NCBI GenBank assembly: GCA_027062325.1
Contig: JAMOTN010000038.1
Location: 1 to 26,234, forward strand
Length of the DNA: 26,234 bases
Source of the DNA: a bacterium
GTDB taxonomy: Bacteria > JAMOTN01
Reading direction: 5' to 3'
In this document: positions 1 through 15,845 of the stretch, in pieces
Layout of the letters: each line of letters starts with the position of its first letter
How positions within the stretch are numbered: position 1 is the first letter of the stretch
Made by a program: the position numbers and the translations under genes
The notes under the pieces: model-generated
Told to the model about the DNA's origin: nothing
What the model saw: only the letters and a program-made list of their open reading frames with translations
Databases searched by the model: none

Positions 1-3000
1 CTGAAGTTGTACTTACACGCTATGGAAGAGTAATTGTTTCCGATGGGGATAAGATGGAGGAGTACCATGTACCTAAGGGTTATTATCTACGTGTTACTGA
101 AGGGAAAGAGGTTACACCTGGAGACATCCTTGCAGAAAAAATAGGAGAGAAGGAGCCGGCAATTGCAAGTTATGGTGGAAAGGTTTACCTACACAACGTC
201 AAAGTTCACGGAGGACAGGTTATAAACGACGAAGGAATTCTTTACGTATTTGATAAGGAAAATGAGGAGGAAGTAGTATATAAACTTCCAACAGGTGTTA
301 GAGAAACTGCTGATGCGAACTCTGAGTACGAACTGGCGGTCAAGAATGGAAGTGAAGTTGCGTATGGCTCTGACATGCTTTACGTGAAGAGTGAAATAGC
401 AGGATATGTCGAGAGTATTTCTGATAAGCAGATAGTTATAAAGAATCGTGTTAAGAGAGAATACTTACTACCTAAAGAGCAGGGAATTGAGTTTGAGGAA
501 AAAGATGGTAAGAAATATTTCTGGGTCAAGGCTAAAAACGGTGGAATTGTGAAGATTAAGAAGGAGACTGTTGATAAGCATCAACATCAGCGTGTTGTGG
601 TTACCAAGAGTGAGGAGTTTAAAATACCTGAGGATATTAAACTATTTGTAAGTGAGTTGAAGGTCAAGCAGGGGAAGAATGTTAAGAAGGGTAAAGAACT
701 TACAGGTGAAGTGAAAATAGTTAGTGAGATAGATGGAGAGGTAGAGGTAGTTGATACTACAATTCCAGCTGATGAGGCAATGATTGGAAAAATTGATGGG
801 TTGTCGCCTGAGGAGTTGAAACAGTACAAAGTTAAAGCCTACAAAGTCATAGTAAGAGATATAAGTAAAGAACCAGTTAATACTAGTAAAAACATAGGGA
901 AAGAGTTGATTGGTAAGAAGGTTTGGGAAGATATTATTTCGAAAGATGGAAAAGTGCTTTTGAAGAAGGGAGAGAAGTTTACTGAGGAGTTCGTGCGTAC
1001 TCACTTTGTACCTGTGGATGCAAACGGAATAATAAGAAAGGTTGAAGAAGAGCCCCTCAACTTGAAAGAGGTTGATCTTGAAAGTTATGTTGGAACAGTT
1101 ATTGAAGGCGATGTTATAGATCCAAAAACTGGCGAAATTCTTGCGGAAAAGGGTGATGTATTGGATGACGATCTTGTTGACCTTTTGAGAGAAAGTAATG
1201 TTGAGGAGATAGTTGTTAGAGGTAGAGGTGTTGCTGTAATAAGTGAAAAAGAGGTTGATTTGAGAGAAGTTTCCGCGGATAGGGAGATGGCACTTGAGCA
1301 GTTGCAGGGAGAGATAACATCTGAGGATATAATAGATCCTGAAACAGGAGAGGTTCTTGTTCCTAAGGGAACAATAATCACCATAGCTATAGTAGATGAA
1401 CTGTTGAAGAGAGCGAATAGTATAGGAAAAGTTAAAGTTTACAGAAAGTATCGTTACAAAATTCCCGAGGGTGCTGAACTTAAATTTGAGGAAGGTAAAG
1501 AGGTTAAGAAGGGAACCGAGTTGGTTAAGGCCTTGCACTTTGCCAATGATCAAATTGTTTGGGTGGAAGAAGAAGTATCTTATGTCATACCAAGTCGCTT
1601 GAAAGGAATGGGCAGACCGTGTGTTTTGAGGGTTAAAACGGGAGATAGGGTCAGCAGAGGAGACGATATAATAGAGCCACTTCCGCCTTATAAGGCTCCA
1701 ATTGATGGAAAGGTGAACTACAAAGTTAAGACTGATGAGAGGACAGGAGAAGAAGTAGTTGTAAGCTTGGAGGTTTATGATACTCAGGATTATAGAATTC
1801 CAGCAGAGATTAAGCTTCTTGTTAAAGAAGGAGATATGGTTGAAGTAGGAGATCCTATTACTGAAAAAGTTGAGTATGAAAATATTGAGGAGACAAAAGA
1901 TGTTTACAAGATCTTTAAGGAGACAGATGAGACTAAGTATCACAAAATTACTCCTGATATGGAAATATTGGTGAAGGAAGGAGACAGGGTAAGAGAGGGA
2001 GATAGACTGGCTGTTTTGAAGAATACCAAGGTTGAGCAGTATGTGACGTATCAAGAAGATGGAGAAACTGATCAAGTAGGTTGTTACACATGCTTCTGGC
2101 CACACTTGAGACCTGCGGCTTTGGAAGTTAAGGTTGGGTCTGGTAAGTGGAAAAAGATTGCGCATGCAATGTCAGAGGTAGTAAGCAAGGGTGAAAAGTG
2201 GTTCGTTGGTAAAAAAATTAGTGCTAAAGATTTGAAAATAGGTGATGAGATTTACAGAATAGGAACTGTAATTGATGAAAAGCTTGCTAAGTTAATAGTA
2301 GAGAACAAGAGCAAGATTGATGATGACGTTGTGTTTGTTGAGAATGGATGGGATGTTGACTGGTCGCTTGGTGTAGTAAGAGTTCCTGACAAAAAGAAGG
2401 TGAAGTTGTCGCTTAAATATGATTACGAGAACAGGATGGTAGTAATATTGGACAAGAAGACAACTACTGTTTCTAGAATCATCCTTAGGAAAGGTGAAGC
2501 ATTCCCAATTACTGAAGGAGCAAGGCTTCAAGTTAAAGAGGGAGAAATTGTTGAGAGAGGAGAAATTTTGGCTAAGTGGGCAGTTGCTACGAAGAAGACA
2601 ACAGATATCGTACAAGGTTTGCCTCGTGTAAGAGATCTATTTAGGGCTCAAAGACCTAAGAAAGAGGCGGTTATTGCACCAATTACTGGTGTTGTTAGAA
2701 AGAGTGGAGTTACTACGGCAACTCTTCACATAGAAGATGAGAATGGAAATACGTATCCTATAAAGGCTTCACTTTCTCAGTTAGCAGAGGCTATTGTGTT
2801 TGATGGTGAGTATGTTGAGAAGGGTGATCAGTTGACGGAGGGGCACATTGAGTTGAAGAAGCTTAGAAACGAAGGAGGAGTTTATAAGGTACAGCGTTAT
2901 TTGAATGATGAGATACAAAGAGTTTATCGTGGGCAAGGTGTTCGTATAAATGATAAACACATAGAGATAATAATAAGCAGGATGTTCAAGCGTGTTCTTA

Positions 3001-3398
3001 TAAAAGATCCCGGAGATACACGCTTTGTAAAAGGAGAAGAAGTGACTCTTACGGAATTTTTGGAAGAAAACGATAGAGTCAAGCTTCTTTACGGGGATAA
3101 GGCGCGTCTTGCGAAGGGGCGTTTGATGGTTGTTGGAATAGAAAAGGCAGCTCTTACAACGGACAGCTTTATCTCCGCTGCATCATTCCAGGAGACGGCA
3201 AGAGTTTTGACCCGAGCTGCGATAAGAGGAAAGCTGGACTTCCTGCGTGGATTGAAGGAAAATGTTATATTGGCGAAACTTATACCAGCAGGTACTGGAT
3301 TTAGGTGGTTCAGAGATGTTGATTGGCCTCCACTTGGTGAGAAGAAGAGAGAAGACGATGCCTCCACTAAAAAAGTTGAAGTAAGTGCCGATGCATAA
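1..3398 (+). CDS. rpoC: RNA polymerase beta' subunit, C-terminal part (5' end outside the window)
   Basis: Catalytic-subunit gene of bacterial RNA polymerase, truncated by the window start; the frame is open from base 3, so the ATG at 54 is internal. The last ~265 residues (from about base 2598) are canonical beta': GLPRVRDLFRAQRPKKEAV, a VYRGQGVRINDKHIEII block, SFISAASFQETARVLTRAA, and GLKENVILAKLIPAGTGF near the end. Everything upstream in the window, at least 850 residues, lies where the trigger-loop insertion (SI3 in E. coli) sits, and consists of repeated sandwich-barrel-hybrid-like units of the form VKEGDRVREGDRLAV plus four helical modules. E. coli SI3 is about 190 residues, so this insertion is extraordinary. 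A CxxC pair (bases 2082-2093) lies inside it. The conserved Mg-binding and bridge-helix parts lie upstream, outside the window. No rpsL follows. Identity is certain; the insertion's role is unknown. Confidence 0.97.
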   Translation, partial: EVVLTRYGRVIVSDGDKMEEYHVPKGYYLRVTEGKEVTPGDILAEKIGEKEPAIASYGGKVYLHNVKVHGGQVINDEGILYVFDKENEEEVVYKLPTGVRETADANSEYELAVKNGSEVAYGSDMLYVKSEIAGYVESISDKQIVIKNRVKREYLLPKEQGIEFEEKDGKKYFWVKAKNGGIVKIKKETVDKHQHQRVVVTKSEEFKIPEDIKLFVSELKVKQGKNVKKGKELTGEVKIVSEIDGEVEVVDTTIPADEAMIGKIDGLSPEELKQYKVKAYKVIVRDISKEPVNTSKNIGKELIGKKVWEDIISKDGKVLLKKGEKFTEEFVRTHFVPVDANGIIRKVEEEPLNLKEVDLESYVGTVIEGDVIDPKTGEILAEKGDVLDDDLVDLLRESNVEEIVVRGRGVAVISEKEVDLREVSADREMALEQLQGEITSEDIIDPETGEVLVPKGTIITIAIVDELLKRANSIGKVKVYRKYRYKIPEGAELKFEEGKEVKKGTELVKALHFANDQIVWVEEEVSYVIPSRLKGMGRPCVLRVKTGDRVSRGDDIIEPLPPYKAPIDGKVNYKVKTDERTGEEVVVSLEVYDTQDYRIPAEIKLLVKEGDMVEVGDPITEKVEYENIEETKDVYKIFKETDETKYHKITPDMEILVKEGDRVREGDRLAVLKNTKVEQYVTYQEDGETDQVGCYTCFWPHLRPAALEVKVGSGKWKKIAHAMSEVVSKGEKWFVGKKISAKDLKIGDEIYRIGTVIDEKLAKLIVENKSKIDDDVVFVENGWDVDWSLGVVRVPDKKKVKLSLKYDYENRMVVILDKKTTTVSRIILRKGEAFPITEGARLQVKEGEIVERGEILAKWAVATKKTTDIVQGLPRVRDLFRAQRPKKEAVIAPITGVVRKSGVTTATLHIEDENGNTYPIKASLSQLAEAIVFDGEYVEKGDQLTEGHIELKKLRNEGGVYKVQRYLNDEIQRVYRGQGVRINDKHIEIIISRMFKRVLIKDPGDTRFVKGEEVTLTEFLEENDRVKLLYGDKARLAKGRLMVVGIEKAALTTDSFISAASFQETARVLTRAAIRGKLDFLRGLKENVILAKLIPAGTGFRWFRDVDWPPLGEKKREDDASTKKVEVSADA
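60..2580 (+). repeat. Tandem sandwich-barrel-hybrid-like protein repeats in the rpoC trigger-loop insertion
   Basis: At least seven diverged copies of a beta-rich unit of pattern hydrophobic-Pro-x(4-8)-hydrophobic-V-K-x-G-x-x-V-x-x-G-x-x-L. They begin near bases 60, 612, 1455, 1581, 1791, 1941 and 2502; a further weaker copy may start near 462. Clear examples read YKIPEGAELKFEEGKEVKKG and HKITPDMEILVKEGDRVREG. Known SI3 insertions of beta' are built from such sandwich-barrel hybrid motifs, which supports the assignment. The repeats are diverged at DNA level, so they are old and not a recent slippage product. Confidence 0.75.
913..2345 (+). repeat. Four copies of an AEDVIDP-type module inside the rpoC insertion
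   Basis: A module of about 45 residues, with pattern G-x-x-x-x-x-D-hydrophobic-I-x-P-x-T-G-E-hydrophobic-L-x-x-K-G followed by a helix and a short beta strand (VxVRG or similar), occurs near bases 913-1030, 1089-1230, 1309-1450 and 2205-2345. Copies two and three are clearest: VIDPKTGEILAEKG and IIDPETGEVLVPKG. The same pattern is known in the conserved part of beta' just before the second Cys region (GRVTAEDVLKP in E. coli), which lies upstream of this window. The copies look like intragenic duplications of that core element, or independent members of the same fold. Confidence 0.6.
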
Positions 3399-13292: not shown

Positions 13293-15845
13293 GTGTCTGA
13301 TACAAGATGGCAGATTTTCGAATACTTGCATCAAGTTAGAGAGGTTTTAGGAAGGCCTTTTTTCTTGGAGTTAAAGCTTACCAATTACTCAGAACCTTTG
13401 ATAATTTCGTCAGGGAAGTGTACAGCTTGTGAAAGAGAATGTTCCGTGGTAGGAGATCAAAAAGAAGCAGAGATTTTGAAAAGGAAGAATGTTTCTCTTG
13501 TTTACTGTACTTACGGTTTGAAAGATGAGGAGAAAAATAGGTTTAGAGTTGCGGGGAATATATTGTTGGATTTGATTGTTCTTTCGATGGAGGTTGTCAC
13601 AACTGAAGAGAGGGAGAAAATAAGAAAAATTCTTGAATCAGTTAAAGTTTTGATCCGAAAGGTTGGTAATCTTGGTGAACTTTTAATTGAGGCTATTGAG
13701 ATCATAGCTTCTGTGTTGGATGTTGGCAGAGTTTCCATAATGCTTTACGATGAGAAGGAAGATGTGTTGAAAATATATGCAGCTAGGGGATTACCTGCTG
13801 ATGTTGTAAGAAAGGTGCGAGTTAAATTAGGAGAAGGAATATCTGGGAAAGTTGCGGCAAGCGGCAGAAGTTTGTTTGTTGTTGATATTGAAAAGGATCC
13901 TCGTTTTTCAAGTGGAAACAAACCTTACTATCAGACTAGATCTTTTGTTTCTGTTCCTTTAATAGGTGAAAGTAAAGTAGTTGGGGTTGTAAATGTTTCT
14001 GAGAAGCGAGGAGACGGACTTTTAACTCGAGTTGATCTTGAGGTTGTTGAGTTTTTATCTAACATAGTTGCAACTTTGATAGATAGAACTTTCCTTCATG
14101 CTGAGTTGCGACATAAACAGGAAAAGCTTTCTGAGATGCTCAAACTTTACGAGGATATGTATGATTTGCTTTCAAAAATGCTCTCTATTACTAATACAAT
14201 TTTTATGTTTTTGTCAAAGCCTGTTGAAGATTTAATGAAAAAGATTGCGGAAATTTTATTAACTTCTTTTGGTTTAGATGTTATGGTTGTTGCTTTGGGG
14301 CAGGATTTTAAAAATAGAATGTTTGTTTCCAATGAGGAATTGAAGCCTATTTTTGCAAGAACGTTGACTCCCGAATTTCTAAAAAAGATTTCGTTTATAT
14401 CTGAAGTTGTGGTTATAAATTGTAGTTCTAAGGGATATGAATTCAATCCTGTGATAAACAGCCTGATATTTGAGAGCACTATGGAGGCTTTGGTAAACGA
14501 GACAGGATACAAATCCTGGATGGTAGTGCCGTTGATATATCAGGGTGAAAAGTATGGATTCATATTTATGGCACGCAACAATAAGTTTGAAGTAAAAGAT
14601 AAGGAGTTTGGAGAGAGTTTGACAAAGCAGTTAACTATAGCTTTGTACAACTTCAAACTTCAAGAGGAGTCGGTAAAAGTCCAGGTTTTCCAAAGAGAGC
14701 TGGAGTTGGGTAGAAAAATCCAGCAGAGTATGTTTCCAGTGGATTATATAGAAGGTGAATATCTCAACAACTATGCTGTTAATATTCCGGCAAAAGTTGT
14801 TGGAGGGGATTATTACGATTGGTTTGAGGATAGAAATGGGGATCATGTTTTTATGGTAGCTGACGTTTCTGGTAAAGGAATATCTAGTGCGTTGATGGTC
14901 AGTGAAATAAGGGCTTTGCTTCATGCGTATAGAAAGAGTGTTGATAGCTTAAGTGGAGTTGTTAAGTTTTTAAATGAGTACTTTGTAGAGTTCAGGGATA
15001 AGATGAAACGTAATCTATTCTTTACGGCATTTTTGAGTAAGATAATTAGAAATGAAAACAAGTTAAGATTTGTAAGAGCAGGGCATAATCCTGCCATAGT
15101 GGTTTACAGAGATGGAAGTGTAAAAGTTTTGGATACACCGGGAATGTTAGTTGGGACATTCGGTGGCATAGATTGGCCAGAAGATGATGTTAGTTTAGAT
15201 GGAATAACCAAACTCGTTATGTATACTGATGGAATTACTGAGGCTTTTGATGTTAATGGTAAAGAATATGGGCTGGATAACCTTATTAGAGTTTTAGAAA
15301 AGGTTGTTGAAGAAGATGCTGAAGAGTCTGTAGATCGTGTTATGTATGATGTTAAGCAGTTTACAGCGGGAGCTGAGCAGAGTGATGATATAACTGTTCT
15401 AATAGTGGACTTTAAAAGAAAAGTTTTGAAGGAAAGGGTTATTCAAACAGACGAAGTGAAGATAGCTCAGCTTATTGAGGAGATAGCAGAGGATGCTAGG
15501 AAAAATGGAGTGACTGGTAAAGAGTTTGATTATTTTATTTTGGTTATGGATGAGTTGCTTGCCAATGCAGCAGAGCATGGAAATGCTTTCAATCCTGAAA
15601 AATCCATATATGTGAAGTGGTTGGCTACAGAAAATAAATTTGAGTTTATGGTTAAAGATGATGGATTAGGTTTGAATCCTGAAAAATTGCATAATCTTAC
15701 CATAAGTCCTATGGCAAGCCGTGGTAGGGGATTGTACATAGTGGACAATTTGGTTAATAAGTTTTATGTAGCAAGTGATGGATATGTGAAAGCGGTAAGA
15801 TACTTTTGGTTACCTTCGGGAATAAAAATTTATCGTCCTCAGTAA
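13293..15845 (+). CDS. Cys-cluster/GAF/SpoIIE-type PP2C phosphatase/RsbW-type ATPase fusion regulator
   Basis: An 850-residue signalling protein. GTG at 13293 follows AGGAGGAG at 6 bases. Residues 43-72 hold a Cys cluster (C43-x2-C46-x3-C50, then C72). A GAF domain spans ~128-266 and ends its core with SFVSVPLIGESKVVGVVNVS. A second GAF-like region lies at ~306-453 (WMVVPLIYQGEKYGFIFMAR). A PP2C domain of the SpoIIE/RsbU type spans ~465-708, with VGGDYYDWF, VADVSGKGISSALMVSEIRA, RAGHNPAIV, YTDGITEAFD and SDDITVLIVD supplying the metal Asp residues. An RsbW/SpoIIAB-like HATPase fills ~715-846, with MDELLANAAEHGN (N box), DDGLGLNP (G1) and GRGLYIVDNLV (G2). In partner-switching systems the phosphatase removes phosphate from an anti-sigma antagonist and the kinase adds it; here both sit in one chain. 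No antagonist (STAS) gene is adjacent. Confidence 0.93.
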   Translation: MSDTRWQIFEYLHQVREVLGRPFFLELKLTNYSEPLIISSGKCTACERECSVVGDQKEAEILKRKNVSLVYCTYGLKDEEKNRFRVAGNILLDLIVLSMEVVTTEEREKIRKILESVKVLIRKVGNLGELLIEAIEIIASVLDVGRVSIMLYDEKEDVLKIYAARGLPADVVRKVRVKLGEGISGKVAASGRSLFVVDIEKDPRFSSGNKPYYQTRSFVSVPLIGESKVVGVVNVSEKRGDGLLTRVDLEVVEFLSNIVATLIDRTFLHAELRHKQEKLSEMLKLYEDMYDLLSKMLSITNTIFMFLSKPVEDLMKKIAEILLTSFGLDVMVVALGQDFKNRMFVSNEELKPIFARTLTPEFLKKISFISEVVVINCSSKGYEFNPVINSLIFESTMEALVNETGYKSWMVVPLIYQGEKYGFIFMARNNKFEVKDKEFGESLTKQLTIALYNFKLQEESVKVQVFQRELELGRKIQQSMFPVDYIEGEYLNNYAVNIPAKVVGGDYYDWFEDRNGDHVFMVADVSGKGISSALMVSEIRALLHAYRKSVDSLSGVVKFLNEYFVEFRDKMKRNLFFTAFLSKIIRNENKLRFVRAGHNPAIVVYRDGSVKVLDTPGMLVGTFGGIDWPEDDVSLDGITKLVMYTDGITEAFDVNGKEYGLDNLIRVLEKVVEEDAEESVDRVMYDVKQFTAGAEQSDDITVLIVDFKRKVLKERVIQTDEVKIAQLIEEIAEDARKNGVTGKEFDYFILVMDELLANAAEHGNAFNPEKSIYVKWLATENKFEFMVKDDGLGLNPEKLHNLTISPMASRGRGLYIVDNLVNKFYVASDGYVKAVRYFWLPSGIKIYRPQ

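Follow-up and report, generated by a model that had tools for sequence, protein, structure and literature searches.

A trigger-loop insertion of about 1,000 residues with BEAN domains in a bacterial RNA polymerase β′ subunit, probably of the cyanobacterial Si3 type

Introduction

How far can the trigger loop of bacterial RNA polymerase (RNAP) be extended, from which modules, and with what consequence for the factors that reach the active site? The question is raised by the truncated first gene of a 26,234-nucleotide contig, the whole of which is called the window here. Recent structural papers describe the trigger-loop insertion Si3 of cyanobacteria as by far the largest in bacteria, without counterpart in other bacterial RNAPs, and the largest bacterial lengths in the literature are 630–645 residues (PMC10120043, PMC10802570). 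A first-pass annotation of the window had proposed an insertion of at least 850 residues at this site, among the largest known and built mainly of units like the sandwich-barrel hybrid motif (SBHM). We have followed up this proposal in the source genome, G000, a draft in 81 contigs that is 84% complete, and in related and unrelated bacteria.

Results

The window (contig C38) starts inside rpoC. Its first frame (3–3398, forward strand, as for all window features below) encodes 1131 residues without a stop and is open at the contig start. The C-terminal part is canonical β′ (TIGR02386, E 7.8e-79, residues 864–1102), with the motif QGLPRVRDLF beginning at residue 871 (nucleotide 2613). The window hence covers 870 residues of the insertion (1–2612); from 2613 to 3398, the trigger loop is completed with its second half and β′ continues into its conserved C-terminal part. 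In this stretch, at 2613–2666, the conserved glutamate of LFEARRP is replaced by arginine (LFRAQRP); 87 of 89 other sequences have glutamate. The upstream part of rpoC was located on another contig of G000, C37 (locus L003), where rpoB is followed by an rpoC frame that extends unbroken from the N-terminus past the first trigger helix to the contig end. It contains the catalytic trigger-loop sequence GEPGTQLTMRTFHTGG of the first trigger helix, GEPGTQLTMRTFH; the helix residues TMRTFH are intact and the catalytic residues are retained in G000 RpoC. Another 135 residues follow TFH before C37 ends (L003:11469-11873). The insertion is thus flanked by TMRTFH on C37 and GLPRV in the window, which bears out the proposed site; the upstream part, examined for another insertion site, led to the trigger loop and to no other.

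The gene is interrupted by a contig break, its two pieces do not overlap, and the assembly is at draft level (81 contigs). An assembly artefact, a chimeric joining of C37 with C38 or a degenerate additional rpoC would be in keeping with all this. We regard these explanations as highly improbable. In an alignment to the intact homolog of genome G256, the C37 piece reaches residue 1196 and the window takes over with its residue 2 at 1197, so the pieces abut; the reading frame calls for 2 (mod 3) missing bases, which means that no more than a few residues were lost at the joint. One HABAS domain crosses it, matching with 28.0 bits (E 3e-9) versus 22.3 bits for the window piece alone. G000 has only one PF04998 set, i.e., a single rpoC copy, and six related genomes carry the same insertion length in one frame. 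Even with C37 set aside, the window by itself still holds 870 residues. From 135 plus 870 plus a few residues, we estimate about 1,006 residues between the trigger-loop halves. Taken jointly with the assignment to the cyanobacterial type given below, an intact, single-copy, unsplit rpoC is the reading we favor as rather probable. From the open reading frames, the rpoBC neighborhood of G000 is unusual, as a pseudouridine-synthase-like gene (L003:2354-3444) precedes rpoB instead of rplJ-rplL. Elsewhere in the window (13293–15845), a single protein chain of 850 residues combines two GAF domains with a SpoIIE phosphatase and an ATPase domain of the anti-sigma type.

With the same anchor-to-anchor measure, the distance was 10–13 residues in insertion-free Firmicutes, about 199 in proteobacteria and 646–707 in Cyanobacteriota. 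The longest insertion in a survey of 87 genomes from 87 families had 670 residues and belonged to a cyanobacterium. The G000 insertion thus exceeds the length first proposed, and its placement among the largest known agrees with both the survey maximum and the published 630–645 residues being shorter.

A genome-contig search with the window protein gave no match, and the closest relationship that the search tool listed for G000 was "same domain"; a search with the C37 part returned 80 distant loci, of use for the tree only. A protein search, by contrast with the former, found homologs in one phylum (39 genomes). The 22 insertions measured there fall into two classes of 671–691 and 971–1,049 residues. 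All 22 RpoC frames are unsplit and all but one complete; relatives with complete genes have one RpoC frame of 1,985–2,367 residues. Lengths in each class are narrowly kept across many genera, and every intact gene of the clade had retained the insertion. That relatives might commonly carry the same length, which the first-pass annotation had named as speaking against its claim, holds in part: with one or the other class present throughout the measured genes, the giant insertion is typical of a lineage rather than a one-off, and that of G386 (1,049 residues) exceeds the one in G000. In the RpoC core tree, G000 falls within the 1,000-residue class, next to G420, so G000 may itself be a member of this phylum. 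In the literature consulted, no relevant report of such an insertion in RNAP of Poribacteria or Riflebacteria came up. Insertions of 621 and 470 residues occur elsewhere in the tree, in G039 and G068. In G039 (L147, G039:C154:32000-48000), the RpoC frame of 2276 residues has a trigger-loop insertion of about 620 residues without BEAN match, and the genome shows no Gre; as the first trigger helix ends only after 1,386 residues, a second large insertion probably lies upstream.

For the domain make-up, profile HMMs for HABAS and BEAN were built from the canonical β′ domains of other bacteria. They detected about nine HABAS (SBHM) units in the insertion, where at least seven separate folds had been looked for, in addition to BEAN units. 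Strict GD-box motifs number 8, compared with 0.07 per shuffle. The first unit in the window (18–137, E 2e-7, or 3e-9 across the joint) is completed by the end of C37 and resembles the N-terminal SBHM of E. coli-type SI3 (profile positions 13–93 match 6wmr SI3 with E 7e-21 and 2auk with 2.7e-7). The GD-box LAVKNGSEVAYGSDM of a further HABAS unit (333–377) adjoins a weak HMM match at residues 128–169. The unit at 525–707 (GD-box LKVKQGKNVKKGKEL, E 5e-4) has strands that appear paired with residues ~566–623 in the predicted model. Further units follow at 1410–1529 (LKFEEGKEVKKGTEL, E 3e-6), 1566–1676 (LRVKTGDRVSRGDDI, E 0.02), 1695–1865 (LLVKEGDMVEVGDPI, E 3e-10, the top HMM score among HABAS units) and 1866–2012 (ILVKEGDRVREGDRL, E 1e-6). 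The last one (2370–2576, LQVKEGEIVERGEIL, E 0.001) leads back into the trigger loop. A discontinuous HABAS domain in the model (165..623) matches T. thermophilus β′ 1253–1329 (VIA Z 10.5), which hints at interdigitated units. Pfam labels for cytochrome f, peptidase M23, RnfC_N and biotin-lipoyl domains were set aside; these share the barrel-sandwich fold and have no functional homology.

Repeated barrel-sandwich units are hence real, as first suggested; what had been overlooked are three to four BEAN domains, to which most of the added length relative to the cyanobacterial type is due. Two are clear and two weak by HMM. Unit 1 (870–1001) is weak by sequence (E 0.007), shows model helices at 298–302 and 328–334, and is not found in the 680-residue class. 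Unit 2 (1080–1217, E 6e-8) corresponds to model residues 348–407, which match the E. coli β BEAN 226–337 (Z 9.4) and β′ 818–884 (Z 8.3). Unit 3 (1290–1439, E 2e-8) aligns with the single BEAN of the 680-residue class, and model residues 409–486 match the T. thermophilus β′ BEAN 1105–1197 (Z 9.2–9.6). The BEAN-like unit 4 (2217–2324, E 0.009) is weak; it lies in a block of 134 residues (2028–2429) that is missing from the 680-residue class, and its region has model helices at 723–729 and 759–767. With the same HMM, BEAN was not found in the trigger-loop insertions of Cyanobacteriota, proteobacteria, G039 and G068, and a survey gives lineage-specific HABAS insertions but no BEAN at this site (PMC11515920).

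The AlphaFold model of window residues 1–900 (pLDDT 67, pTM 0.42; residues 123–810 about 80 pLDDT) is good at the domain level, and it does not fix the overall shape or the position on the enzyme. A model of the whole G256 insertion (pLDDT 59, pTM 0.30) was set aside for questions of arrangement. BEAN-like matches also occur outside the insertion. RpoB on C37 (L003:3444-8243) is long (1599 residues) and has at least one extra BEAN-like match (residues 588–639, E 4e-6); in the relatives G420 and G416, BEAN-like parts of the insertion also match RpoB frames. In RpoC (L003:8253-11873), a BEAN-like match precedes the canonical BEAN (575–614 of the stop-to-stop frame, E 2e-7), and a tandem BEAN-like copy stands directly behind it (961–1012, E 6e-5). 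BEAN growth may thus touch both large subunits.

Profile alignment of the cyanobacterial and 680-class insertions runs end to end (1–642 versus 1–689), with 19% identity and a score of 237 versus 168 for the best off-register alternative. The 1,000-residue class in turn aligns end to end with the 680-residue class (36% identity). The G000 residues beyond the latter, window residues 257–426 (with small breaks) and 676–809, correspond to the regions of BEAN units 1, 2 and 4. The single BEAN of the 680-residue class maps to cyanobacterial residue ~326–330, and the Si3 head comprises insertion residues ~277–387 (PMC10120043); by this sequence correspondence, the part equivalent to the cyanobacterial head is where the BEAN array lies. 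In Foldseek, the eight best PDB matches of the model were all cyanobacterial Si3 or RNAP, at low TM scores. In the RpoC core tree calculated with the insertion removed, the G000 clade joins Cyanobacteriota with support 100/99 (98 in a second tree), and this grouping takes in Cyanobacteriota with unsplit RpoC, whose insertions have 646–681 residues.

Could a giant insertion have been built independently, from an ordinary two-unit SI3, by duplication of HABAS and BEAN units, with its likeness to Si3 reflecting fold repeats? Since repeats of one fold align easily, convergence keeps a share of the probability. HABAS repeats align mutually in many registers, scoring off-register up to 168, identity to the cyanobacterial insertion is low (19%), other parts of G000 β′ also contain BEAN units, and 621 (G039) and 470 (G068) residues were attained in other parts of the tree. 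Nevertheless, we consider such independent accretion rather unlikely, given that the full-length colinear alignment with cyanobacteria is clearly ahead of others, that the core tree joins the two lineages (100/99), and that unsplit Cyanobacteriota have insertions of 646–681 residues. Our preferred reading, which we hold to be somewhat probable, is that of a cyanobacterial-type giant Si3 with enlarged head that covers the Gre site. The simplest history would be an ancestral Si3 of ~650 residues common to both lineages, with the head enlarged later: a HABAS-only form would have gained one BEAN on the head (680-residue class) and then more (1,000-residue class and G000).

The Gre N-domain was found in 0 of 40 genomes (G000 and its 39 relatives) and 0 of 69 Cyanobacteriota; the C-domain was likewise not found, except for one partial match of 30 residues. 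Since G000 is 84% complete, the absence of Gre from this one genome counts for little when taken alone. In 98 assorted genomes from other families, Gre was present in 68 and absent from 30. All three genomes of this set with insertions of at least 400 residues were Gre-negative, versus 21 of 84 with shorter ones (p 0.019). Even where no large insertion is present, Gre is thus missing in roughly one genome out of four. Cyanobacteria and the G000 clade may moreover share one Gre loss, in which case the correlation rests on few events. Gre absence fits altered factor access. For DksA, weak zinc-finger matches were seen in 2 of 39 relatives and none in G000; this result carries little information, since many control bacteria are without the family. 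A valine at the position of E. coli A940, reported to raise cleavage, was dropped as a candidate because it is common in Gre-positive genomes too.

Discussion

We infer the position of the insertion on the enzyme and every functional step from analogy with cyanobacterial Si3. In cyanobacterial structures, the Si3 tail and fin lie on the rim helices, the docking place of Gre and DksA (PMC10802570), and Si3 growth was suggested to have hastened Gre loss (PMC7026648). If seated likewise, the G000 insertion would rest with its root (tail and fin) on the rim helices, where the secondary channel opens, and keep Gre- and DksA-like factors out; the enzyme would then have to cleave RNA and proofread unaided. 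From there, the body would follow the β lobe, and the BEAN array would enlarge the distal head. Since the cyanobacterial head contacts sigma and closes off the cleft, the head in G000 probably has more extensive contacts with sigma or with upstream DNA. The whole arm might swing with each folding of the trigger loop.

Alternatively, the insertion may be a neutral passenger, i.e., ballast tolerated in a cavity, with BEAN growth lacking a regulatory role and the missing Gre coincidental. Cyanobacterial RNAP from which Si3 was deleted shows unchanged, normal catalysis (PMC10802570), Gre is missing anyway from 30 of 98 assorted genomes, and one phylum accommodates two length classes. Ballast would hardly be expected, however, to keep its length so narrowly within each class (671–691 and 971–1,049 residues) over many genera with no intact clade gene lacking it, and deletion of the cyanobacterial head lowers open-complex stability and fitness (PMC10120043). 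We therefore think a purely neutral role unlikely. At the other end, it is tempting to speculate, with little confidence, that the BEAN array is a docking module on the trigger loop through which sigma, DNA or another factor senses or directly steers its folding while Gre is excluded. It would then be a regulatory arm exclusive to this lineage, and a giant, Gre-excluding Si3 would have existed in the ancestor shared with Cyanobacteriota, predating photosynthesis and the rpoC split.

A colinear, unsplit Si3 that is half again larger, with BEAN in the segment of the sigma-contacting head and again without Gre, now occurs in another lineage. The proposed trade between a giant Si3 and Gre hence becomes testable outside cyanobacteria and apart from photosynthesis, high manganese and a split rpoC, all previously put forward as linked causes.

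Among known systems, the BEAN domain (CATH 3.90.105.10) is described for β′-bD5 and for insertions in β (PMC11515920), and units 2 and 3 are alike to it by HMM and structure; its place within a trigger-loop insertion, not reported in the literature, is that found in G000. E. coli SI3 (β′i6, PDB 2AUK, of "type 4" β′) occupies the same site and its N-terminal HABAS unit matches by sequence, but it comprises two HABAS units in ~190 residues and coexists with GreA, GreB and DksA. Si3 of plant plastid RpoC2, at the same site and descended from cyanobacterial Si3, is about 160 residues longer than the cyanobacterial form (PMC10120043). It is still below the 1,006 residues of G000. Even larger RpoC2 proteins occur in some algal plastids. 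The closest likeness is to cyanobacterial Si3 itself (RpoC2; PDB 8EMB, 8GZG, 8SYI; "type 3" β′ of PMC11515920), which shares the site, nested and colinear HABAS units, the best Foldseek match, the RpoC core clade and the lack of Gre. It differs in length, with 630–645 residues in the literature and 646–707 by our measure against ~1,006 in G000, and in being built of HABAS only, where the G000 insertion also carries three to four BEAN domains. Finally, the split into RpoC1 and RpoC2 that defines type 3 is found in photosynthetic cyanobacteria, whereas rpoC of the G000 clade is unsplit.
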